Source of the DNA: Thiobacillus sp.
Lineage (GTDB): Bacteria > Pseudomonadota > Gammaproteobacteria > Burkholderiales > Thiobacillaceae
NCBI GenBank assembly: GCA_019459705.1
Contig: JAIBFE010000215.1
Location: 1-33,639 of the forward strand
DNA length: 33,639 nucleotides
Direction: 5' to 3'
Shown in pieces: positions 11,154 through 33,639 of the stretch. The position numbers and the translations under genes are program-made. How positions within the stretch are numbered: position 1 is the first letter of the stretch; each line of letters starts with the position of its first letter. The notes under the pieces are model-generated. The model did not search any database and was not told the DNA's origin. It saw only the letters and a program-made list of their open reading frames with translations.

Positions 11154-13187
11154 TTATTTCGCGGACGTGGACGTTTGCTGGGTAAGCGTGTCCAGTGCCT
11201 GCGCATGCTGGACGAATTCTTTTTCGAAATCGATGGTATGTTTGGCCGACGACATCGCCAGCAGCGCGTGGCCCGGCTTGATGCGAACCCAGACCCGACG
11301 TTCGCGCACGTAAAGCATGAAGAATACGCCGAGTGTCAGCAAAAGCGAACCGAAGTAGACCACGTTCTTGCCGGGCGAGCGGGTGAGCTGCAGGCCGCTC
11401 GCCTTGACCTCGTCGTACTGCATCAGTTGCAGATAAATCGGCGCGCCATAGACGAACATGTCACTCATGCTGTTGAGCGTGTCGCGCACCAGCCAGCCAG
11501 TGGCATCGTCAGCCGCGGGAGCGGGCAGGCTGGCCTGGCGGTTGGCAATCTGCAGCGCTTCGAACGCAGCAAGCTCCAGAATGCGCAGATAGGTGCCGGC
11601 CGCCTTGTCGCGTTCGGCCTCGGGGACCTTGTCTTCGATGAATACCCCCAGCGACTGGAAGCCGCCTTCGGCGAACAGGGCTAATACCTGGGTGGCGCTG
11701 AATTTCAGCTTGTCCTCGATTTCGGTGCCCCAAGCCTCCTGCGGCAGCGCCTGGCGGGCGAATCGGGCGGCAATTTCGGGGCGCAGTTCCGCATTCAGCA
11801 GGGCACCGCGCAGGCGCATGAAGCTGTCGATATCGCCCCCTGCATCGAGCGGCATGCGCAGGTAGCGGAAGGATTCGTTCGGCGATTCGCGCACCCCCGA
11901 CATCAGGTACCAGCGGCCGTCGAGTTCCAGCGGCAGCATGTAATTGCTGAACTCGCGCGCCTGGCCGCGTGCATCCCGCAGCTTGTACTGGAAACTCGGG
12001 CCGACGTTGCGCAGATGCCGTTTGTCGCTCACCGGGCTGCCGCCAAGCACGCTCATGGTGTCGCCGGATGCCTCGACTTCGCCGCCCATGTTCTCGATGT
12101 TGAACGGGCGGAAGTCGGTGAATTCGAGCGTGTAGTTACCTGCTGCGCTGGTCAGCGTGGTGTTCTGGTGCACCGTGCCTTCGATGGGGAAGGTGGCGAT
12201 CGTCGGCGCGAACAGGTTCCAGCCGCGCAGGCTCAGGCGGGTGCCGCCGTCGGCAAAGCTCGCCTGATAAATGGCGATATTGTCGTGGATCAGCGGATGG
12301 TTGACTGCAATCGTCGCTTCCCGGATTTTCTTGCCGGAACGGTCGAACAACTCGATGTCGCTTTCAAAGCTCTTCGGCTGACCGGTGCTGTAGTGCTCGA
12401 TGCGGAACTGCTTCAGCGCCACGGTGAAGGGCAGATCCTGCACCAGGTAGCCGTCTGCCACATTGAGGAAAGCCACATCCGCGCTGGAGCCTTCGGGAAT
12501 CTGCACGCTGCCGCGGAACGACGGATTGGACGGCGACAGGCGCGAAATTGCCGGCACCTGGCTTTGCGGAATGTCGCGCGTTTCGATTTTTTTGTACCCC
12601 AGCACCTGCTGTGCCTTGAATACCAGGTTGCCATCCATCAGCCCGCCAATGCAGATCATGACGATGGCCGAGTGCGCCAGAAAATAGCCGAGGCGGTTCC
12701 AGCTGCCGGCTTTGGCGGCGAGCAGCATGCCGTCTTCGCGCAGCAGGCTTTTCACCTTGTAGCCCTGGCCTTCAAGATAGCGCTGGGCGCTGGCTGCCAG
12801 CATCTCGGGCGGCTGTTCGGTAACGGCTTCGTGCTTGTGTTTGAATGCAGCGAGCGACTGTTCGCTGACGTGCTCGCGGAAACTTTTCATTTCGCGCGCA
12901 AAATTCGGCGCGTTGCGGTAGATGCAGACGCTGGTGGAGGCGACCAGGAAGGTCAGGATGACCAGAAACCAGGCAGCGTGATAGACGTCGTACAGTCCCA
13001 GCTTTTCGAATACCTGGAACCAGAAGGGGCCGAACTGGATGATGTAGTTGCTGTACGGTTCGGCCTGCTTCAGTACGGTGCCGACAATGGATGCGACCGC
13101 GAGAATGGACAGCAGGCTGATGGCAAAGCGCATCGAGCTCAGCAGTTCAAACAGGGACTTGCCGAAGTAGTGGGTGGCAGTATTCAT
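11154..13187 (-). CDS. resB: ResB-like cytochrome c biogenesis protein (System II)
   Basis: 677 residues. Three N-terminal membrane segments are visible: around FAISLLSILAVASIVGTVL, AWFLVILTFLVASTSVCIY and LAHSAIVMICIGGLM. A large periplasmic domain follows, then a C-terminal membrane segment (VVYFGSLLLTLGVFFMLYV). It forms the heme export and ligation complex with the CcsA-type protein downstream. The ATG is only about 9 nt after the U-tract of a terminator and lacks a Shine-Dalgarno, so its transcript should come mostly from read-through of the cytochrome c4 promoter. Cytochrome c4, a likely client, is the gene directly upstream. Confidence 0.95.
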   Translation of the reverse strand: MNTATHYFGKSLFELLSSMRFAISLLSILAVASIVGTVLKQAEPYSNYIIQFGPFWFQVFEKLGLYDVYHAAWFLVILTFLVASTSVCIYRNAPNFAREMKSFREHVSEQSLAAFKHKHEAVTEQPPEMLAASAQRYLEGQGYKVKSLLREDGMLLAAKAGSWNRLGYFLAHSAIVMICIGGLMDGNLVFKAQQVLGYKKIETRDIPQSQVPAISRLSPSNPSFRGSVQIPEGSSADVAFLNVADGYLVQDLPFTVALKQFRIEHYSTGQPKSFESDIELFDRSGKKIREATIAVNHPLIHDNIAIYQASFADGGTRLSLRGWNLFAPTIATFPIEGTVHQNTTLTSAAGNYTLEFTDFRPFNIENMGGEVEASGDTMSVLGGSPVSDKRHLRNVGPSFQYKLRDARGQAREFSNYMLPLELDGRWYLMSGVRESPNESFRYLRMPLDAGGDIDSFMRLRGALLNAELRPEIAARFARQALPQEAWGTEIEDKLKFSATQVLALFAEGGFQSLGVFIEDKVPEAERDKAAGTYLRILELAAFEALQIANRQASLPAPAADDATGWLVRDTLNSMSDMFVYGAPIYLQLMQYDEVKASGLQLTRSPGKNVVYFGSLLLTLGVFFMLYVRERRVWVRIKPGHALLAMSSAKHTIDFEKEFVQHAQALDTLTQQTSTSAK

Positions 13188-17492: not shown

Positions 17493-18560
17493 GTGGACGC
17501 GGTATTGCGGGACATTCTGGAACTGGCCCGCTGGGCGCCTTCTGCGGACAACACGCAACCCTGGCGTTTCCAGGTGCTGGGCGAGCGAGAGCTGGTTTTA
17601 TGGTATGCCCCCGGCCCGGATTTGAGTGTCTTCAACCTGGATCATTTTGCCGGCTGTTTGGCCATGGGCGCCTTGCTGGAAACCCTGGCCGTGGCCGCTA
17701 CGGTGCACGGTCTGATAGTCGCCGACACACGCACTGAGCCCGCTTTCCACAATTATCCGTGGGGTATTCACGTGGTATTGCGCGCTGAAGTCGGGCTGGC
17801 GCCTTCCCCTCTCGTGCCCGTTGTTTCCCGCCGCACCACTCAACGCCGTCGGATGTCTCTTGTTTCCCTGTCCGCCGCGCAAAAGCAGGCCTTGGAGGCC
17901 AGTGTCGGAAAACTTTACAGAATCCTGTGGCTTGAGGACTGGGCAAGCAAGTTGAAGATGGCCTCTTTATTGAACCGGGTCGGCAAAGTCAGGTTGCTGA
18001 TGCCGGAAACCTTCGCCGTGCACCGGGATACGATTGCCTGGGGCGCGCAACATAGCGACGACCGCATCCCTTCCGGGGCGATCGGCGCGGACCCCCTGCT
18101 GCAACGCATCATGGCGTGGACCATGAAGTCCCAGGCACGCGTTCGCATGCTTAACCGCATGGGCGGTCATTTGTTGCCCAGAGTGGAAATGGATTTATTG
18201 CCCGCTTTGGCCTGTGCCGGGCATTTTCTCGTCTGGAGCGAGCGGCCCCTGGACGACCCTGCCGCCCAAATGGAGGCAGGGCGTGCCCTGCAGCGTTTCT
18301 GGCTAACGGCTGAGAGCCTTGGCTTGCAGTTTCAGCCGGAAATGGTTGCCCCGCTTTTTTGTCGCTATATCAGGACAGATCGACTTTTTACACGTGATGC
18401 ATGGGCGGCGACCGAGATGGCGGTGCTATGCAAGCGGTTTTCGCAATGGATGGGCGCCCAGCCATGGGCGCAAGCCGCGTTCATGGGACGTCTGGGGCGA
18501 AGCCAGCCGGTTGTTAGCCGGTCATTCAGACAGCCATTGAACGCTTTGCTGATTCCCTGA
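17493..18560 (+). CDS. nitroreductase-family protein
   Basis: 355 residues from GTG 17493; GGAG just upstream overlaps the end of the ThiF-like gene. The N-terminal ILELARWAPSADNTQPWRF is the FMN-binding entry motif of nitroreductases. The rest is longer and more divergent than classical NfsB-type enzymes, with a middle region rich in Met/Arg and a C-terminal half LQRFWLTAESLGLQFQPEM that fits the fold. It probably catalyses an FMN-dependent oxidation or reduction on the operon's product. As I recall, ThiF and nitroreductase domains also occur fused in other bacteria; this should be checked. No signal peptide. Confidence 0.8.
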   Translation: MDAVLRDILELARWAPSADNTQPWRFQVLGERELVLWYAPGPDLSVFNLDHFAGCLAMGALLETLAVAATVHGLIVADTRTEPAFHNYPWGIHVVLRAEVGLAPSPLVPVVSRRTTQRRRMSLVSLSAAQKQALEASVGKLYRILWLEDWASKLKMASLLNRVGKVRLLMPETFAVHRDTIAWGAQHSDDRIPSGAIGADPLLQRIMAWTMKSQARVRMLNRMGGHLLPRVEMDLLPALACAGHFLVWSERPLDDPAAQMEAGRALQRFWLTAESLGLQFQPEMVAPLFCRYIRTDRLFTRDAWAATEMAVLCKRFSQWMGAQPWAQAAFMGRLGRSQPVVSRSFRQPLNALLIP

Positions 18561-18666
18561 ATGTGTCGGTGGACTTTACACTTCGGCCTTCACGCGCTGG
18601 AAACGTGCAGGCTGCCAACAAGAAAATTCCTTTAAAAACAAACTATAACTCATGTTCTCCTGGAGG

Positions 18667-18682
18667 TGGCACAGTCGGTGCT
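18667..18682 (+). promoter_or_regulatory. sigma-54 (-24/-12) promoter of the PEP-CTERM gene
   Basis: TGGCACA-GTCG-GTGCT matches the consensus TGGCACG-N4-TTGCW except for two bases, with the GG and GC dinucleotides exactly 12 bp apart. A start site near 18692 would leave a leader of about 50 nt. PrsR, encoded in this window, is a sigma-54 activator and the likely partner. Confidence 0.82.
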
Positions 18683-18744
18683 TTGTTAGGGGCATGACAG
18701 CCATCTTGGCGTCAATGTCTAACCTCTACTCAAGGAGAGTAACG

Positions 18745-19647
18745 ATGATTAAGAAAACAGCAGTGGCCCTTGCGCTGATGGCTGGCTTTGCGGGCAGCGC
18801 CCACGCCGGGATTGATTTCACCTTCAATTACGCGTTGGCCAACGCCGTCGAAGGCTATACGCCGCCGGCTGTAACGGTCCCTGGCTACAACAGCTACGAT
18901 AGCGCCCTGTCGAAAGTAACGGACGAGATGAAGTTCACGGCGGAATCCTTGGTTAGTTTTAACGGGGGCGTTCCTTTCCAGTCGGGCTCCACGTTCACGG
19001 ATTACGTCATTGTGCGCATTGACCAGCTGTTCAATGACGGCAACAACAATTTTGACGTCTATAACCTCGGTAGCGACCGTCAGGTAACGGTGGCAATTGT
19101 GATGGACGGGTTGTTCGTCAGCAATCAGAACTATGTCTTCACTTCGCTCAGCCGGTTCGACGTCTATTATGATGCGGGCGACAATGCAGCGGGTGGCGCT
19201 GTCTACACTGCAGCCAATTTTAACGGCCCCCTTGGCAACTTCGTCGACGGCACGCTGGCTGAAACTGGCTCCAATCTGTCAGGCGGTGGTGTGACCGGCG
19301 TCACGGTGACTGATGGCGCGCTCAACCTGAGTGTGCTGTTGACCGATCAGCTGGCGAACGGCGATTTTGAAGTGGGCCCGACGGGTCAGCTGTTTACCAA
19401 GCTGGTGAGCGCCTTGGTGAACGGCAATAACGCCCTTTGTACCGACGACGGCGGCACCCAACAGGCTTGCGGTACGACGGAGGCCGGTTTGGCTGCATTC
19501 TTTGGCACGTCGGCTGGTGCGACCGTGTTCCACACTCGGACGGATGGCTCGCTGTCCAAAGCCGTGCCTGAACCCCAAACCCTCGCGCTCATGGGCTTGG
19601 GCCTGCTGGGGATGGGTTTCGCTGCACGCAGCCGCAAAGCCAAATAA
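18745..19647 (+). CDS. PEP-CTERM sorting domain-containing secreted protein
   Basis: 300 residues from ATG 18745, with AAGGAG eight bases upstream; the track's start at 18652 would bury the sigma-54 promoter and the ribosome site. Signal peptide MIKKTAVALALMAGFAGSAHA. The body is Asn/Asp/Gly-rich and predicted beta-rich, with one cysteine pair (CTDDGGTQQAC). The C-terminus is a standard PEP-CTERM signal: VPEPQTLALMGLGLL, hydrophobic stretch, then RSRKAK. Exosortase (XrtA/EpsH, not in this window) should recognise it and release the protein to the surface or matrix. The specific function is not recognised. It has its own promoter and terminator, so it is a single-gene unit. Confidence 0.93.
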   Translation: MIKKTAVALALMAGFAGSAHAGIDFTFNYALANAVEGYTPPAVTVPGYNSYDSALSKVTDEMKFTAESLVSFNGGVPFQSGSTFTDYVIVRIDQLFNDGNNNFDVYNLGSDRQVTVAIVMDGLFVSNQNYVFTSLSRFDVYYDAGDNAAGGAVYTAANFNGPLGNFVDGTLAETGSNLSGGGVTGVTVTDGALNLSVLLTDQLANGDFEVGPTGQLFTKLVSALVNGNNALCTDDGGTQQACGTTEAGLAAFFGTSAGATVFHTRTDGSLSKAVPEPQTLALMGLGLLGMGFAARSRKAK

Positions 19648-23180: not shown

Positions 23181-23861
23181 TTAGCGTGAGGAGAGTTGCT
23201 GATAGAGCTGTCGGGCCTGAGCTTGGGCAGGGAAGACGATTTCACGGTCCAGCAGGGTCTTGAGTTCCTGTCTGGCACGCATCGTGTCACCTGCCAGATA
23301 CAGTCCATAGGCCAGATGCCAGTGGATTTCAGCGGCATCCGGCGCCTTGGATAGCGCTTGCTGCAGAAGCTTGAGGCCGCGTTCAGGCTGCCCCTGCCGA
23401 ACCAGGATCCAGCCCAGGGTGTCCATCACGGCAGGATTGTCGGGTTTGAGCTTGAGCGCCTGCTCGGCAAATGCAAGCGCGCGGCTGTCCTTGGATTCGA
23501 AGAGAGACCACGCAAGGTTATTCAGGACAAGAAGGTTGTTTGGGTTGCTCTTGTTCAATATCAAATAATGTTCAACCGCGGCTTGATGCTGCTTGCGCTT
23601 GATCAGACTTTCGGCCAGCGCTGCGCGGGTGTTGGCGTCTTGCGGGTGGCTGGCCAGCCAGCTGGCGAGGCGCTTTTCGCCTTCTTCTGTACGCTGGGTG
23701 GCATTGAAAACCTGCAGCTGGCGGATGAGCCATGCACCGGAAGGCGCCAGTTTCTGTGCGCGTTCGAAGGCGGCGAGTGCGGCGGAGTAGTCCTTGCGCG
23801 CAAAGGCAGCGTCGCCTTCGAGGATGAAGCCGGCCGGGCTGCCGGGTTTTTGCTGCTGCAC
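23181..23861 (-). CDS. prsT: PrsT C-terminal fragment (second half of frameshifted prsT)
   Basis: 226 residues of TPR protein with no lipoprotein signal of its own and no ribosome site before its GTG. The frame is open upstream to about 23898, where it joins the 689-aa ORF after a 1-nt shift. The joined sequence (VEIQ-ARFDEALKLARQ...FILEGDAAFA) aligns with ISDALKIAKQ...QILEGDIHLA of the neighbouring PrsT. It is best read as the C-terminus of that gene, not an independent gene. Confidence 0.85.
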   Translation of the reverse strand: MQQQKPGSPAGFILEGDAAFARKDYSAALAAFERAQKLAPSGAWLIRQLQVFNATQRTEEGEKRLASWLASHPQDANTRAALAESLIKRKQHQAAVEHYLILNKSNPNNLLVLNNLAWSLFESKDSRALAFAEQALKLKPDNPAVMDTLGWILVRQGQPERGLKLLQQALSKAPDAAEIHWHLAYGLYLAGDTMRARQELKTLLDREIVFPAQAQARQLYQQLSSR

Positions 23862-23886
23862 CTGTCGGGCGAGCTTGAGTGCCTCG

Positions 23887-25956
23887 TCAAAGCGTGCCCT
23901 GAATCTCGACGCCGCCGAGCATCAGTTGCGCATCGAGGAAATCGGGCTGGATGCTCAGGGCATCCTGCAGGGTTTTGCGTGCGCCGGCCATATCCTTGGC
24001 GGCGATCTGCGCGGTGGCGACCTTGGCCAGCGGCGCGGCCTGGCGGGGCAGGCGTTCGGCCAGCTTGCGGTAGCTGCCCAACGCGTTGGTGGTGTCTCCC
24101 AGCGCCAGCTGGATGGTGCCGAGAAGATCGAGTGCGGCTGGGTTATCGGGCTGCGCATTGACCGCTTCGCGCGCGGTGGCGAGCGCCTTGTTCTTGTCGC
24201 CCCTTGCGAGTTGATGGCGCGCCAGTGCCACCCGCGGCTGCAGTGCCTGCGGATGTGCGGCGGCGGCCTTCTCCAGCCAGCTTGCATAGACTTTTTCATC
24301 CTTGTTGCGCAGCCCCAGGTCGGCTAGCGCGAGCATGGCGCTGAGATGCTTGGGATCGGCCTTGAGGATGCTTTCGAAGCGTTGGCGTGCAGCCTCGGGT
24401 CGATTGTCTTTCAGGTCGAGTTGCGCCAGATTGGCTGCCGCAGGAAAAAACGCGGGGTCGAGCTTGAGTGCCTGGTTGAAGCTGTCACGTCCTCGGGCGA
24501 CGTCCTGTTTGCCAAGATAGGCCGCGCCCCGGTAGTTCCAGACGATCGGATCAGCGGGCTGTTTCTTTTCCAACGCGGCAATGCTGGCCAGCGCAGCGTC
24601 GAACTGTTTCTTTTTCAGCTGATTGAGAATGATGAAGGTGTCGGCGCGACTGTTGGCGCCTTCCATCGCAGCGGCGGTCTGCAGGTCGGCCATGGCACGG
24701 TTGTCGCCCTGGGCCAGTCGGGATATGCCGAGCTCGGTGCGAATGGCTGCGCTGTCGGGGCTGCGCTGTGCGGCCTGCTCGAAATAGGCCGAAGCCTGGG
24801 AAAAGTTCTTTTTGGCGAGGGCGATTTCACCGGCGACGACCAGCATACCGGCGTCCTGGCTGGCCGACTTGAGCGCCGGCGCCAGCGTGCGTGCCGCGTC
24901 GTCCGGGCGTCCCAGCCGCAGCTGCGAGGCGGCCAGCAGACGCAGTGCATAGAGATTGCCCGGCGTGGCCTTGACCACCTTGTTGAGATGCGCTTCCGCG
25001 GTCTGCAGGTTGCCGAGCGCGTATTCTATCGAGCCGCCCAACAGCAGTGCAGGGACGTAATCAGGTGCCGTCTTCAGTACCGAAGCAAGGCGATCGCGTG
25101 CGCGTTCGGTTTTCTTCTCGCGGAAATCGATCAGCGCCTGGGTATAGCGCGCCTGCAGGCTGTTGGGGGTGATTTTCAGGGCGGCCTCGACTTCCTCGCG
25201 CGCCAGGTCCAGCTTGTTTTCGGAAATGGCGATACCCGCCAGTGCGAGCCGCGTGCTGCTATGACGCGGATCGATTTTCAGCACGTCGCGATAGACTGCG
25301 GCGGCTTCCGCCGGCTTGCCCGCAGTGCGCAACAGGTCGCCTTTAAGCAATAGGCTGTCACGGTGTTTGGGGTCGATGCGCAAGGCCTGGTCGAGATCCT
25401 TCATGGCCTTGCCGGCGTCGCCGTCGGCAAGGGCCAGTTGCGCCATCGCGAGATGGATTTCGGCATTGGCGGGCGCAATCGCCAGCGCGCCTTGCAGCAT
25501 CTTGCGCGCGTCCTCCTTGCGCCCCAGTCCGAGCTCGGCGGTGGCGCGCAGGGCTTGCAGGGTGGCGGCATCGGCGTCACCGGCGGCCGGTACGGGCAGT
25601 TCGTCCAGTACACGCTGGTATTCGCGCTGCCCCAGCAAGGCCCGGGCGATCATCGGCTTGACGGTGGCGGCGGGAAAACCGGCTTCACGGGCCCGCCGGA
25701 ACTCTTTTTCCGCGCTGGCCAGATCGAGTTGCTCGAGATACAGCTTGCCCAGTTCAAAGCGTGCTTCGGCGTTGTCTTCGTCACCCGCCACGGCGTTCTT
25801 CAGCTGAATCATCGCCGCCTTGTGATCCCCCGCCGTGATCTTCGCCCGGGCATCGGCCACCAGCGAAGCTGGCTCTTCTCCGCTGCAGGCGGTCAGCAGG
25901 CTGGCGCCGAGAATCAGGGCCGGAAGTAGCCGGCGCGCGGGGACGGGAATAGACAT
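23887..25956 (-). CDS. prsT: PrsT-type TPR-repeat lipoprotein, N-terminal 689 residues (frameshifted gene)
   Basis: Lipoprotein signal MSIPVPARRLLPALILGASLLTAC (lipid Cys24), then a long series of TPR units such as ARFELGKLYLEQLDLASAEKEF and LLKGDLLRTAGKPAEAAAVY. The frame ends early at VEIQGTL-stop. Removing one G from the GGG at 23897-23899 continues into ARFDEALKLARQ and restores a 924-residue protein, exactly the length of the downstream PrsT. GGAGG sits five bases before the ATG. It is the first gene after prsR, with a possible promoter in the 47-bp gap. Either a recent inactivation, a sequencing error or recoding. Confidence 0.88.
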   Translation of the reverse strand: MSIPVPARRLLPALILGASLLTACSGEEPASLVADARAKITAGDHKAAMIQLKNAVAGDEDNAEARFELGKLYLEQLDLASAEKEFRRAREAGFPAATVKPMIARALLGQREYQRVLDELPVPAAGDADAATLQALRATAELGLGRKEDARKMLQGALAIAPANAEIHLAMAQLALADGDAGKAMKDLDQALRIDPKHRDSLLLKGDLLRTAGKPAEAAAVYRDVLKIDPRHSSTRLALAGIAISENKLDLAREEVEAALKITPNSLQARYTQALIDFREKKTERARDRLASVLKTAPDYVPALLLGGSIEYALGNLQTAEAHLNKVVKATPGNLYALRLLAASQLRLGRPDDAARTLAPALKSASQDAGMLVVAGEIALAKKNFSQASAYFEQAAQRSPDSAAIRTELGISRLAQGDNRAMADLQTAAAMEGANSRADTFIILNQLKKKQFDAALASIAALEKKQPADPIVWNYRGAAYLGKQDVARGRDSFNQALKLDPAFFPAAANLAQLDLKDNRPEAARQRFESILKADPKHLSAMLALADLGLRNKDEKVYASWLEKAAAAHPQALQPRVALARHQLARGDKNKALATAREAVNAQPDNPAALDLLGTIQLALGDTTNALGSYRKLAERLPRQAAPLAKVATAQIAAKDMAGARKTLQDALSIQPDFLDAQLMLGGVEIQGTL
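23897..23899 (-). other. frameshift site in prsT
   Basis: Coding strand ATT-CAG-GGC-ACG-CTT-TGA. With GG instead of GGG it reads ATT-CAG-GCA-CGC-TTT-GAC, which continues the TPR protein. Confidence 0.85.
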
Positions 25957-26003: not shown

Positions 26004-27352
<1,349 letters not shown>

Positions 27353-27356
<4 letters not shown>

Positions 27357-29437
27357 GCGGCGTCTCCTCCAGCATATGCATTATTGTCCAACGGCAGGCT
27401 GAGGCGGAAGCGGGTGCCGCGGCCCGGCGTGCTGTCCACCTCGATATTTCCATTCAGGGCGCGCAGCGTTTCGCGACATTCATACGCGCCGATGCCCATG
27501 CCCGCCCCCTTGGTGGAATCAAACGGCTGAAACAGTCGGGTGCGGATGAATTCGTCGTCCATGCCGTTGCCGGTGTCGATGATTTCAATGATCGCCAGCC
27601 CGGCTTCCTCGAATGCGCGCACAGTGACATGGCCATTCTGGGGGGTGGCCTCCAGCGCATTTTGCAGCAAATGGCCGATGGCGCGGGTGAGGCGTTCACG
27701 TTCGGCGCGAACGCGGAGGGCTGCGGGCGGCAATTCCAGCACGGGACGCAGCTTGTATGCCTGCTTGCTGGCGGCGGCATCATTCAGGATATCAGCCAGC
27801 TCGACCGACTGTGCCTGCGCCTCGCCGCTGCCCCGGCGCAATTGCGCCAGCACCTTGTTCATGCGGGCAACCGCGTTTTCCACGGTGTCCAGCATGTCGG
27901 CCTGAAACTCGGGGTTGTGCTTGTGTTTTTCGGCATTGGCCAGCAGCAGCGACAGCTGGGCAATGAGATTTTTCAGATCGTGGATGATGAACGTGGTGGT
28001 GCGGTTGAACGACTCGAACTGACGCGCCACGATGAGCTGGTTGGATGCGCGCATTTGCGCCAGGTGTGCCGCGGCCTGACGTGCTGCCACCTTGAGCAGG
28101 TCACTGACTTCCCAGTTGAAGCTGACGTTGCCGAGCGAATGCTTGAGAACCACAAAGCCGAGCAGTTCGTCGTGCAGCATCAGTGGCACCACCAGCCAGG
28201 CGTCGTCGGCACGCTGAATCCACGCCGGCGTATCGAGATCGCCGTACAGATCGCGACGGGTTTTCATTTCGTCCAGGTCCACCACCCACTGCTTGCTGGC
28301 GAGCCACTGGATGAAAGGCGAATCGGCCGGCTCAGTGCCCTGTATATCGGCCCAATTCCAGTGGCTGGCGCGTTGATAGCCGGCGTTGTCTTCACGCATC
28401 CACAGCGCGCCGCCCGGACTTTCGAGCAGCTTGGCCAGTGCCTCGACCGCGCGTTCGCACAACTGCTCGCCGGGCTGGCCCTCGGTGAGGGTGCGGGTGA
28501 AATTGAGCCATTCTTCGCGGTAGTCGTAGCGGTAGCTGAAAAAATGCTTGGAGAGAAACACCCGCAGCCGCGCGCGCAGAGTGCCAGAAAACATCAGCAG
28601 CACCAGCAGCATGGCGGCGGCGAAGATGAACACGGTCTGTACCACGTCGCCCCACTCGCCGCCGAACAGGCGCAGGTAATAGCCGGCGCCGGCCATCAGC
28701 AGCAGGTAAATGCCCGCACCGAGCAGGCTGGCGGTGTGGAAAGCCATGCTGCGTGACAGCCCGACCGGTGCTGCCCACTCCGGATTGCGTGCGGCGGAAA
28801 CCGCGATCAGTGGCGTCACCAAGGCCGCCACATAGCCGCGCGCCGCCCACACCCGAGCGTCCATTGCGTTGAACAGTGCGGCATTGGCGTAGAGATAGAA
28901 GTCGTATATGAACAGTCCGCCCAGCCCGAGGCAGAGAAACTTGATTGCCCAGCGGTCTTCCGGACGGGTGCTGCGGTAGACCTGCTCGACCAGTACCAGG
29001 CCCATGACAGTGAGCAGAACCAGCCCCAGATTCCCGGCCCATCGCGCCAGCACCGGTTGGGTGGGAGCGATGAAGGGCATGACGCTGGCAAGCAGCAGAC
29101 CGATCACAAGCACGCTGGCCAGGGTACGGATAAGGTGCAGGGGTGCCGGCAGGCTTGCACCTGGCGGCAGCCGCAGCCGCAGGATATAAAGTAGCAGTGC
29201 CAGCCATGCACCGTTGCGCACGACTTCGGCGGCGAGTTCCAGCCGTGGCGGCAGCATCCCCCAGGCGGCCAGTGCCGACATTCCCCCCCAGGCCGCGCTG
29301 AGTCCGGTGGCGAGCATCAGCAGACGACCCTGCGGACGTTGCCGCCAACTGGCGATGATGAGTCCGGACAGCCCCAGATAGGTCAGCGCCGCCAGGCCAT
29401 AACCGACGGCAGCGAGGAGGAGCAGGGTGTCGGGCAT
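27353..29437 (-). CDS. prsK: XrtA/PEP-CTERM system histidine kinase PrsK
   Basis: 694 residues. The N-terminal half is a multi-pass membrane sensor of about eight segments (LLLAAVGYGLAALTYLGLSG at the start). A GAF-like domain follows (about 310-460), then the phospho-acceptor helix with His486 in FIIHDLKNLIAQL, and an ATPase domain with N-box NALEATPQ and G-box GNGMDDEFI and GAGMGIGAY. It autophosphorylates and passes phosphate to PrsR. What it senses is unknown. It begins 22 nt after the sugar transferase gene, in the same operon. Confidence 0.95.
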
Positions 29438-29459: not shown

Positions 29460-30854
29460 TCAGCGTACGCCCTTTCCCCACAACACGACTTGTGCGGTCT
29501 GGAACAGGATCATGAGATCGAGAAACAGGCTGTGATTCTTGACGTAATAAAGATCGTATTGCAGCTTGTGCATGGCGTCGTCGTCGGTTGCGCCATACGC
29601 GTAGCGTACCTGTGCCCAACCGGTGATGCCGGGTTTGACGGTGTGACGTACCCCGTAATAGGGAATTTTCTGGGTCAGGTCCTGCACGAAATAGGGGCGC
29701 TCGGGGCGCGGGCCGACGAAGCTCATGTCGCCGAAAAACACGTTGAATATCTGCGGCAGCTCGTCGATGCGGGTGCGCCGGATGAAACGCCCGGTGAGCG
29801 TCACGCGGCTGTCGTTCTGTCCGGCCCAGCGCGGCTTGCCGTCTTTTTCGGCATCGACGCACATGCTGCGGAACTTGAGGATGGTGAAATTGCGGCAGCC
29901 CTGGCCTACGCGCTCCTGGCGGTACAGCACCGGGCCGGGACTTTCCAGCTTGATCAGCAGCGCGGCCAGCGCCATGATCGGCAGGCAGACCACCAGCATG
30001 GCCGCGCTGACCAGCAGGTCGAACAGGCGTTTGACGGTGTCGCGCACGATCCCCTGGTGGAAGCCTTCGGCCAGGATCATCCAGCTGGCGTTCATCGAAT
30101 CCAGCTGCAAATGGCCGTTCTCGCGCTCGAAGAAGCTTGACAGTTCCAGGACCCGGATGCCGTACAGCTTGCATTTCAGCAGTTCCTGCACCGGCATGCC
30201 GCCGCCCCGGCGGTCACGCACGGCGAGGATGATCTCGCTGATTTGCAGACGCAGCGCCAGTTCGGGCAGGGATTCCTGGGTGTCGAGAATGCGCGCATGG
30301 TCGACGAAATGATGACTGCCGCCCATCGGCAGGTAACCGACCACCTGGGTATTGCTGGCGTGGCCGCGCTTGGTCAGCAGCGCCTCGACGTGGGCGGCGC
30401 GGCTGCCGGTGCCGATCACCAGGGCGCGGGTCTTGAGTGCGCCCGCCCGCGCCCAGCGGATGAATAGCGCACGGCTGAGCAGGATGCCCAGCAGCGCCAG
30501 GCCGAATGACAACAGGAAAGCCCCGCGCCCGACCAGCAGGGGGGGGAAGAAATAAAACAACAGGCTCATCGTCACCAGGCCCAAACCGAAGCTCAGGCCG
30601 AGACGCTGCAGCAGGGTGCGAACGCCGCCCTGCCATTCCAGGTCGTAGAGACCGCTCGCGGTCATCAGTCCCAGCATGACGATGGCGAAGGTCAGGGCCT
30701 TGGGCAGCAGGGGATTGAGATCGTCCGGAATCACGCCGCCGTCGAAGAAGCGCGCGCTGACACCCGCGTAGATGGCGCCACCGAGAATCAGCGACTCGAT
30801 CAGCACCAGCAGCAATAAATTCAGGGGCACGTAGTGCCGGAAAAATCGGATCAC
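29460..30854 (-). CDS. epsB: PEP-CTERM system-associated sugar transferase (EpsB-type, undecaprenyl-phosphate)
   Basis: 464 residues from GTG 30854. Four N-terminal membrane segments (LLLLVLIESLILGGAIYAG, etc.), a Rossmann-like middle (ALVIGTGSRAAHVEAL), and the bacterial sugar-transferase domain (KRLFDLLVSAAMLVV, FTILKFRSM, IDELPQIFNVFFGDMSFVGPRP, KPGITGWAQVRY). It should load the first sugar phosphate onto undecaprenyl phosphate to start exopolysaccharide synthesis. First gene of the operon with prsK-prsR. A five-codon reading frame (ATGAGTAAACGGCCGTGA) overlaps the GTG start and may couple translation. A run of eight C lies in the coding strand near 30540. Confidence 0.93.
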   Translation of the reverse strand: MIRFFRHYVPLNLLLLVLIESLILGGAIYAGVSARFFDGGVIPDDLNPLLPKALTFAIVMLGLMTASGLYDLEWQGGVRTLLQRLGLSFGLGLVTMSLLFYFFPPLLVGRGAFLLSFGLALLGILLSRALFIRWARAGALKTRALVIGTGSRAAHVEALLTKRGHASNTQVVGYLPMGGSHHFVDHARILDTQESLPELALRLQISEIILAVRDRRGGGMPVQELLKCKLYGIRVLELSSFFERENGHLQLDSMNASWMILAEGFHQGIVRDTVKRLFDLLVSAAMLVVCLPIMALAALLIKLESPGPVLYRQERVGQGCRNFTILKFRSMCVDAEKDGKPRWAGQNDSRVTLTGRFIRRTRIDELPQIFNVFFGDMSFVGPRPERPYFVQDLTQKIPYYGVRHTVKPGITGWAQVRYAYGATDDDAMHKLQYDLYYVKNHSLFLDLMILFQTAQVVLWGKGVR

Positions 30855-30891
30855 GGCCGTTTACTCATAAGAAATCATGGCTAAAGCCAAT

Positions 30892-30908
30892 GAGCATCTT
30901 CCATGCCA
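30892..30908 (-). promoter_or_regulatory. sigma-54 (-24/-12) promoter of the epsB-prsK-prsR operon
   Basis: Minus strand TGGCATG-GAAG-ATGCTC matches TGGCAYR-N4-TTGCW with one mismatch in the -12 box, and GG to GC spacing is exactly 12 bp. Start of transcription would be near 30883, leaving a ~28-nt leader before the GTG. Confidence 0.75.
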
Positions 30909-30931: not shown

Positions 30932-31507
30932 TCAAGTCAGGGTCCGCACCTGAGGCAGGCGCACGCGCCGCGGGTTGCCGTCGGCCTGCAGGCGTTTCAT
31001 GCCACGCAGTTCGGCGGCCGGGTAGACGATGATTTCGATCGTTGCGCGAGGATCATCGATGACAAATCGGGGATAGATCCGTCCGGGGGCATCCGCTGCG
31101 CGATATTCGGCGACTTGATACGGGGTCGTCAGGCGCAGCAACAGAAAATCGACATCCTTTTGCTGATCGGTAAAGAGTTGCAGGTTGATGCTGGCGTGGC
31201 GCCCGGCCGTGCCATTGAGCACCGGCCCGGTCAGATGGGGGTCGAAGTCGGCCAGCTGTTCCATGTACTCGATGGCGACCTGCCGCAGCAGGGCCAGTTG
31301 TGCGCGGGTTTCGTCAGCCTGGTACAGCGCCTGATAGCTGCGCAGCGCCTCTTCGATCTGCTGGTTGTCCGGAAGGTTGCCGCTGTCGGGTGCGCCAAGC
31401 TGGCGCGCCGCCTTGCGCTTGGCACTGCCGTAGTCAAGACTGCCGTCTTCGGCCAGTATGCGTGCCGCCGCGTGCGCAATGCGGCGGCGCATGTCCTGAT
31501 GTTTCAT
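30932..31507 (-). CDS. uncharacterised proteobacterial protein, possibly nucleotidyltransferase-like
   Basis: 191 residues, cytoplasmic, no membrane segment. The N-terminal part is helical and basic (RRRIAHAAARILAEDGSLDYGSAKRKAARQLG). The C-terminal half is beta-rich (ASINLQLFTDQQKDVDFLL, ATIEIIVYPAAELRG). I know similar betaproteobacterial proteins only as hypothetical or loosely called nucleotidyltransferases; the classical GS...DxD motif is not seen. Its ATG overlaps the PBP1A stop (ATGA), so it is coupled to peptidoglycan synthase translation. Confidence 0.7.
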   Translation of the reverse strand: MKHQDMRRRIAHAAARILAEDGSLDYGSAKRKAARQLGAPDSGNLPDNQQIEEALRSYQALYQADETRAQLALLRQVAIEYMEQLADFDPHLTGPVLNGTAGRHASINLQLFTDQQKDVDFLLLRLTTPYQVAEYRAADAPGRIYPRFVIDDPRATIEIIVYPAAELRGMKRLQADGNPRRVRLPQVRTLT

Positions 31508-33639
31508 GGTGCGGTTCCGGGTGCGTCGACAGGCGGTTCGGCCGGGACGTCCGGGTCGGCGCCCCAGCTGGCTGCGGGTGCCTCGGGCGGCGGGAATTCC
31601 TGATAGAAATGCTCCGTCATGCCGGCGGGTGCCACTCCCAGCAAATCGCCCAGCAATTCATCCACGACCGTGTCGGGCAGGCGGGTGCCGGTGGCCGGGT
31701 CGATTTTGACCGTGATGATGCCCGCAGGCATGGCCCAGCCTGTTTGCGGGACGCCCTTCAGCGCCGCGCCCATGAAGCTCATCCAGATCGGCAGCGCGGA
31801 TTGTGCGCCTGTCTCGCTGCGGCCCATCGAGCGAGGCTGGTCATACCCCATCCAGGTGATCGCCACCAGGCCGGGGTTGTAACCGGCGAACCAGGTGTCG
31901 CGCGCGTCGTTGGTGGTGCCGGTCTTGCCGGCGAGATCGCTGCGCCCCAATTGGCCGGCGCGTGCGGCCGTACCGTAGCGCACCACGTCCTGCATCATGG
32001 TGGTCATCAGCCAGGCGTTGCGCGAGTCGATCACGCGTGGTGACGTGCCACCGGCCCGTTGCGGGCTGGCCTGCATCAGAAGGCGTCCATCCTTGTCGAG
32101 CACCTTGTCGATCAGATAGGGTTTGACGCTGAAGCCGCCGTTGGCGAACACGCCGTAGGCCGCCGCCATCTGCAGCGGCGTGACGCTGCCTGCACCCAGC
32201 GCCATGGTGAGATAAGGCGGGTGGCGGGCCGGGTCGAAGCCGAAGCGACGGATGTAGTCGCGCGCGTAATGTGGGCCGATCCCCTGCAGGATGCGCACCG
32301 ACACCAGATTGAGTGATTTGGTCAGTGCGCTGCGCATGCGCACCGGGCCGCTGGCGCCGCCGTCGTAGTTTTTGGGTTCCCAGGCGGTGCCGCCGGCCTC
32401 CTCGGCGCTCAACACCAGCGGCGCGTCCTGGATGATGGTGGCCGGGGTGTAGCCTTTTTCCAGTGCGGCGGAATAAATGAAGGGTTTGAAGCTCGATCCC
32501 GGCTGGCGCCAGGCCTGGGTCACGCGATTGAATTTGTTACGATTGAAATCAAACCCGCCGACCAGCGCGACGATGGCGCCGTTATTCGGATTCAGGGCGA
32601 CGAGCGCGGCCTCCACTTCGGGCAGCTGCGCCAGCCGCCATTGCGGCTTGCTGCCGACCGCCTGTACGCGCACCACCGCGCCGGGGGCGAGTTGCCGGCC
32701 TTTTTTCCCGGCGACCCAGCTTGCAACCCATTTGAGCGAATTGCCGGTGATCTCCACCAGCTTGCCATCCTGCAATTGCGCGCGAATCAGTTTGGCGTCG
32801 GCACTCACGACCACCGCAGGGTGCATGTCGCTCACCGGGGCAAGCTCTTCCAGTGCGCTGGCAATCGCCGATTCGCGCTGCGTCTTGTCGGCGGGCAGGC
32901 TGATCTGTTTTTCCGGCCCGCGATAGCCGTGGCGCAGGTCGTAATCGGCAATGCCCTGCCACACTGCATGGTTGGCGGCGGTCTGTTGTGCGCGCTTCAG
33001 CGTAGTGACGACCTTGTAGCCCGAGCTGTAGATGGATTCGCCATATTTCTCGAACAGGCTCTGGCGCACCATCTCGGCAGCGAAGTCTGCGCTGACGTCG
33101 GCCTGCTGGCGTGCCTGGCGAATCACCAGTTTCTGCTTGATGGCGGCCTGCCACGTCGGCTGATCGATAAACTTGAGCGTCTTCATGCGTCCCAGCACGT
33201 ATTCCTGTCGCGCCTTGGCGCGCGGGAAATTGACCACCGGGTTGTAGCGAGACGGCGCCTTCGGCAGCCCTGCCAGCATGGCGAACTCGGCCAGCGACAG
33301 TTCCTTCATGGGCTTTCCAAAATAGGTGCGTGCAGCGGCCTCGAAGCCATAGGCGCGCTGTCCGAGATAGATCTGGTTGATGTAGAGCTCGAGAATTTTG
33401 TCCTTCGACAGGTTGTGCTCGATCTTCATCGCCAGCATCGCTTCCGACAGTTTGCGGCTGAGCGTCTTTTCGTTCGACAGGAAGAAATTGCGTGCCACCT
33501 GCAGGGTGAGGGGGGCGGCCCCCTCCTTGGCGCCGCCAGACAGCAGGTTCGCGCCCGCCGCGCGCAGCACGCCGAGGGTATCGACGCCGCCGTGGGTGTA
33601 GAAGCGCTCGTCTTCAGCGGCGATGATCGCCTGCTTCAT
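31504..33639 (-). CDS. mrcA: penicillin-binding protein 1A (bifunctional transglycosylase/transpeptidase), N-terminus cut by window edge
   Basis: At least 711 residues; the codon at the edge is internal, since the family starts further upstream with a membrane anchor. Glycosyltransferase domain: EDERFYTHGGVD with the catalytic Glu, QVARNFFLS, and KILELYINQIYLGQ. Transpeptidase domain: SSFK (active Ser), SLN and KTGT motifs in order. It polymerises and crosslinks peptidoglycan in the periplasm. The second glycosyltransferase motif reads GAAPLTLQ where GASTITMQ is expected, possibly sequence errors near the window end. The C-terminus is Pro/Ala-rich. Confidence 0.93.
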   Translation of the reverse strand: MKQAIIAAEDERFYTHGGVDTLGVLRAAGANLLSGGAKEGAAPLTLQVARNFFLSNEKTLSRKLSEAMLAMKIEHNLSKDKILELYINQIYLGQRAYGFEAAARTYFGKPMKELSLAEFAMLAGLPKAPSRYNPVVNFPRAKARQEYVLGRMKTLKFIDQPTWQAAIKQKLVIRQARQQADVSADFAAEMVRQSLFEKYGESIYSSGYKVVTTLKRAQQTAANHAVWQGIADYDLRHGYRGPEKQISLPADKTQRESAIASALEELAPVSDMHPAVVVSADAKLIRAQLQDGKLVEITGNSLKWVASWVAGKKGRQLAPGAVVRVQAVGSKPQWRLAQLPEVEAALVALNPNNGAIVALVGGFDFNRNKFNRVTQAWRQPGSSFKPFIYSAALEKGYTPATIIQDAPLVLSAEEAGGTAWEPKNYDGGASGPVRMRSALTKSLNLVSVRILQGIGPHYARDYIRRFGFDPARHPPYLTMALGAGSVTPLQMAAAYGVFANGGFSVKPYLIDKVLDKDGRLLMQASPQRAGGTSPRVIDSRNAWLMTTMMQDVVRYGTAARAGQLGRSDLAGKTGTTNDARDTWFAGYNPGLVAITWMGYDQPRSMGRSETGAQSALPIWMSFMGAALKGVPQTGWAMPAGIITVKIDPATGTRLPDTVVDELLGDLLGVAPAGMTEHFYQEFPPPEAPAASWGADPDVPAEPPVDAPGTAP

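Follow-up and report, generated by a model that had tools for sequence, protein, structure and literature searches.

The closest described system to the locus analysed here is the PEP-CTERM system of Haft et al. (2006; PMC1569441), which shares with it the regulators PrsK and PrsR and an occurrence in betaproteobacteria including Thiobacillus. The promoters of that system contain two motifs. Motif 2 is a -24(GG)/-12(GC) sigma-54 site, and motif 1 is a 17-nt sequence ending in TTTACA that was predicted to be the PrsR site and lies about 63 nt before the -24/-12 element of PEP-CTERM genes, a distance given only as a mean and SD. For Aquincola tertiaricarbonis RN12, the available parts of the report by Xia et al. 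(PMC9850573) describe a mapped, RpoN1-dependent pepA promoter with TGGCAC and CTGCTT elements and note a predicted enhancer upstream of it. RN12 has the same epsB2-prsK-prsR gene set, and insertions in epsB2 and prsK abolish its flocs; the promoter mapped in RN12 is that of pepA, none being reported as mapped for epsB2-prsK in those parts, and the loss of rpoN1 is stated there to leave prsT transcription unaffected. In enhancer-binding-protein cascades and autoregulated sigma-54 operons generally, the genes downstream of the sigma-54 promoter likewise include one for a sigma-54 activator. We found no report in the literature on what turns the prsK and prsR genes on.

The stretch of DNA analysed (33,639 nt; hereafter the window) comes from a fragmented Thiobacillus genome, and the relatives of its EpsB at 82-95% identity, which include T. 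denitrificans and T. thioparus, are mostly from records named Thiobacillus. A PBP1A gene is followed on the minus strand by a gene for a 191-aa protein, epsB, prsK, prsR and two prsT genes:

31504..33639, minus strand: PBP1A-family penicillin-binding protein (family match)
30932..31507, minus strand: upstream gene of 191 aa without a Pfam or NCBIfam match (family search)
30893..30908, minus strand: sigma-54 (-24/-12) promoter of the epsB operon, TGGCATGGAAGATGCT (geometry and conservation)
29460..30854, minus strand: epsB, XrtA/PEP-CTERM-type glycosyltransferase with a GTG start (TIGR03013; 547 bits against a cut-off of 393)
27353..29437, minus strand: prsK, PEP-CTERM system histidine kinase (TIGR02916; 944 bits)
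26004..27356, minus strand: prsR, sigma-54-interacting response regulator (TIGR02915; family match)
23887..25956, minus strand: first part of prsT (TIGR02917 positions 6-680; the frame breaks after it)
23181..23861, minus strand: second part of prsT (TIGR02917 positions 695-899; family match)

Overlaps of 4 nt join the end of the PBP1A gene to the 191-aa gene and prsK to prsR, and the gap between epsB and prsK is 22 nt. The same-genus loci examined share the window's gene order between the 191-aa gene and prsR, and the position of the 191-aa gene, with pbp1A on one side and epsB on the other, is conserved in Thiobacillus and several further genera. The product of epsB is a glycosyltransferase of the PEP-CTERM system and is not itself a PEP-CTERM protein. 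The prsT gene probably belongs to the epsB-prsK-prsR operon. In this assembly it is split by a frameshift (23861-23895, minus strand) that could reflect either a genuine lesion or a fault of the assembly; relatives have a single intact frame of 924-929 aa.

The element TGGCATGGAAGATGCT heads the epsB-prsK-prsR operon. Its minus-strand letters read TGGCATG-GAAG-ATGCT-C from 30908 down to 30892, with GG at 30907-30906 and GC at 30895-30894 separated by exactly 10 bases (GG-N10-GC) in a TGGCAY/TGCW context. The 16-mer ends with a T at 30893, 38 nt upstream of the epsB GTG at 30854, and transcription is predicted from the -12 geometry to start near 30883. The site resembles motif 2 of the PEP-CTERM promoters. 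Unlike those promoters it lacks motif 1, and it drives regulator genes rather than a PEP-CTERM gene. The pattern TGGCAYGNNNNNTGCW has a single exact match in the window, which is the epsB site; six matches were found when one mismatch was allowed, as against 4.4 expected. Since such matches are expected by chance, the consensus alone is weak evidence and conservation decides. No sigma-70 promoter or terminator was found between the 191-aa gene and epsB. The rpoN gene was present in all four genomes tested, and the fragmented genome of the window has two partial pieces of it.

Within Thiobacillus, the GG-N10-GC arrangement is kept 33-42 nt upstream of epsB in 31 of the 32 readable loci, with the exception of L044, which has TAGCATGGAAAATGCT. 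The bases around the promoter and the intergenic length vary across these loci. Information averages 1.74 bits per column across the 16 columns, whereas the flanks reach about 0.26 (upstream) and 0.25 (downstream). Among 56 Thiobacillus genomes, 36 copies of the pattern TGGCAYGGAAGMTGCT were counted; no genome holds more than one, except for a single genome with two copies. Twenty nine of the thirty fetched sites directly precede an epsB start and the thirtieth lies at a contig edge; the second copy in the one genome precedes a small secreted protein gene. A site scoring at least 20 was found before epsB in 46 of 48 named Thiobacillus loci, where the score is a weighted consensus written from the general sigma-54 consensus and serves as a ranking, not as a calibrated probability. 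In two Thiobacillus loci (L183/L044 and L209) the -24 G or the whole site is lost, and epsB and the surrounding genes are still kept; these loci offer a natural test of the need for the promoter.

Sites reaching the same score were also observed before epsB in 15 of 32 other betaproteobacterial loci, whereas 20 was not reached in any of 1,311 control stretches taken from these loci. The promoter tracks the gene order, as it is present in thirteen of the fifteen non-Thiobacillus loci with the 191-aa gene upstream and in two of the seventeen without it. It was absent from six outgroup loci of other families (L071-L076) and is therefore not universal to epsB. Judged by its letters and by this conservation, the site is confirmed as a genuine and strongly conserved sigma-54 promoter, which bears out the part of an earlier note on this DNA that claimed a -24/-12 promoter with exact spacing 38 bp before the epsB GTG.

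Two other readings of the 16-mer were weighed against this one. It contains a partial dyad, GCAT-N5-ATGC, and might be a repressor operator or some other site instead of a sigma-54 promoter; the spacer GGAAG is itself conserved within Thiobacillus, and L044 has a perfect AGCAT-N5-ATGCT although its -24 GG is lost. However, the variable positions follow the degeneracy of sigma-54 sites (Y at the sixth base, A or C before TGC) with no dyad-like covariation. Outside the genus the dyad and the spacer vanish, the spacer letters changing to AAAAAC, AAATTC or GGAGTA, while TGG..GC persists with TGGCAY and TGCW retained. This drift fits a sigma-54 promoter and not a dyad operator, and we consider an operator improbable. 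Alternatively, coding constraint might explain the conserved letters, whether from a short frame upstream of epsB (ATGGAAGATGCT) or from the upstream gene; in several species ATG GAA GAT GCT is open, and the frame sometimes runs to an end over the start of epsB. Species with TGGCACGG have no ATG, however, the downstream codons and frames are unconserved, and in every aligned locus the 191-aa gene has ended ahead of the site, so that a coding origin of the letters is very hard to credit.

The PrsR box, in turn, proved to be sharply defined in Thiobacillus as YGTCGRN5TTTACA, with 8-18 copies per genome compared to 0-2 for the reversed pattern. The boxes stand 63, 74, 85 or 97 nt before sigma-54 promoters. 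Across sites drawn from Thiobacillus and other betaproteobacterial genomes, the distance from box to -24 is quantised into classes of 61-64 nt (30 sites), 73-76 nt (18), 83-87 nt (13), 95-98 nt (9) and 105 nt (1), and these recur roughly every 11 nt (Rayleigh R 0.83, n=74, the sites being partly orthologous). Such quantised spacing fits a face-of-helix mode of activation. In the window, a box of this kind precedes a pepA-like gene:

18564..18580, plus strand: PrsR box of pepA, TGTCGGTGGACTTTACA (box match)
18667..18682, plus strand: pepA sigma-54 promoter, TGGCACAGTCGGTGCT (86 nt after the box, in phase)
18652..19647, plus strand: pepA-like PEP-CTERM gene (NF033554 at 68.5 bits, below the cut-off of 80; PF07589 motif above cut-off)

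The true start of the pepA-like gene is likely to be 18745. A second exact box, TGTCGGAAAACTTTACA, lies at 17903-17919 (plus strand) within a nitroreductase-like gene (17493-18560), and no good sigma-54 site was found downstream of it. Boxes were also observed before an XrtB-type polysaccharide operon in two genomes:

12888-13125 of locus L137 (genome G011), and also in L138 (genome G023): PrsR boxes before the XrtB-type operon, the nearer box 97-98 nt before TGGAACGGCCATTGCT

In G011, where the operon encodes EpsD, EpsL, EpsF and EpsG, the distance is 98 nt, and in G023 the box lies 97 nt before an identical TGGAACGGCCATTGCT. The XrtB-type operon probably belongs to the PrsR regulon. The broader idea of the earlier note, that PrsR co-ordinates matrix protein and polysaccharide, may therefore hold by another route than the epsB promoter.

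No PrsR box was found from -2000 to +600 around epsB with a weight matrix applied to both strands of the same-genus loci and six outgroup loci; the best score was below 10 in every locus, compared to about 20-29 for the defining sites. Box scores were also averaged at each offset across an alignment of 46 Thiobacillus promoters, and the phased offsets showed no rise. The offset that stood out most in this profile was 228 (z = 3), and individual scores did not exceed 7.6. Synonymous constraint was absent from the final 18 codons of the 191-aa gene, whose synonymous sites vary as freely there as in the rest or more, which argues that no conserved enhancer is hidden in the coding DNA near the epsB promoter. 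Codons 22-28 of the same gene, some 570 nt ahead of epsB, form a patch of low variation; the protein itself is conserved over this part. Taken together, the box, offset and synonymous searches found no upstream activating element for the epsB promoter in Thiobacillus, and in this the locus differs from the general cascades and autoregulated operons named above.

A conserved element of another kind, AAAACATCGTCAT, stands ahead of the epsB sigma-54 promoter in one further genus within the same order; it was found in eight of eight sampled genomes of that genus and in none of 391 other genomes of the order. It consists of an invariant CAAAACATCGTCAT, a short gap and then TGACGA-like letters, and is located about 100-110 nt before the -24 of epsB (loci L236, L240, L241, L243, L244, L246 and L248). 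Apart from chance coding matches it is restricted in those genomes to the epsB promoter, and we regard it as a candidate site for an enhancer-binding protein. Six of seven tested genomes with this element hold PrsR boxes elsewhere (7-16 compared to 0-5 for the reversed pattern); the remaining genome, which is fragmented, has none. These comparisons of sequence suggest that the core promoter stays fixed while the enhancer, and perhaps the activator, changes between lineages. A search for the TCGTCA..TGACGA element in Thiobacillus gave no convincing match. One look-alike in the window, at about 31030 over the codons for IEIIVY, was rejected as it has no nucleotide-level conservation.

The epsB operon itself encodes PrsR, with its sigma-54 interaction domain, and autoregulation is common in two-component systems; PrsR might regulate its own operon positively, using a site that is degenerate, distant or non-canonical, or acting from solution when its concentration is high. 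Sulfuriferula (L221) and L215/L217 do have isolated half sites like TGTC/CGACA ahead of epsB, and weak, half or distant sites could escape a box search. Against this stand the missing box in every Thiobacillus locus searched, the flat score at every phased position upstream of -24 in the 46 loci, the unconstrained overlapping coding DNA and the different element before epsB in the other genus. Moreover, Thiobacillus genomes encode about ten full-length enhancer-binding proteins, so that the proximity of a sigma-54 promoter to prsR is not enough to implicate PrsR. In the complete genome G011, the nine full enhancer-binding proteins typed were NtrC, a GlrR-like protein, PrsR and six others, and no evidence favours any of them as the alternative activator. 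We consider positive autoregulation unlikely, at a level that still keeps it in contention. The claim of the earlier note that PrsR activates its own operon is accordingly left unsupported: the shared box that it proposed to seek in both upstream regions is present in phase at pepA and missing at epsB, and is likewise missing before epsB in every Thiobacillus relative with the same gene order. The all-or-none switch for matrix production was stacked on that same step.

Another activator is likelier than PrsR, as the box is absent at epsB yet stands in phase before the PEP-CTERM-type and XrtB promoters. It is rather probable that the genes form a cascade, in which another sigma-54 activator would turn on epsB-prsKR and PrsR would then act on its targets. 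In such a cascade, RNA polymerase with sigma-54 would bind 30908-30893 and require an ATP-driven enhancer-binding protein; an activator other than PrsR would switch on epsB together with the PrsK/PrsR sensor pair; and phosphorylated PrsR would, through its boxes, activate the genes for pepA-type matrix proteins and for polysaccharide export. The fuller reading, a two-tier sigma-54 cascade in which the site of the upstream activator is replaced between lineages while the core promoter stays fixed and the PrsR boxes are helically phased, is one that we hold at slightly less than even odds (about 0.45).

In many betaproteobacteria, PrsK and PrsR are predicted to be the master switch that controls flocs and exosortase-sorted matrix proteins. 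The locus is not a new kind of system. For floc and biofilm specialists, the data should be useful in giving a conserved entry point to this switch, namely one promoter and one operon, together with a prediction that separates self-activation from a cascade. The sharper PrsR box and the helical spacing rules make the regulon predictable genome by genome.
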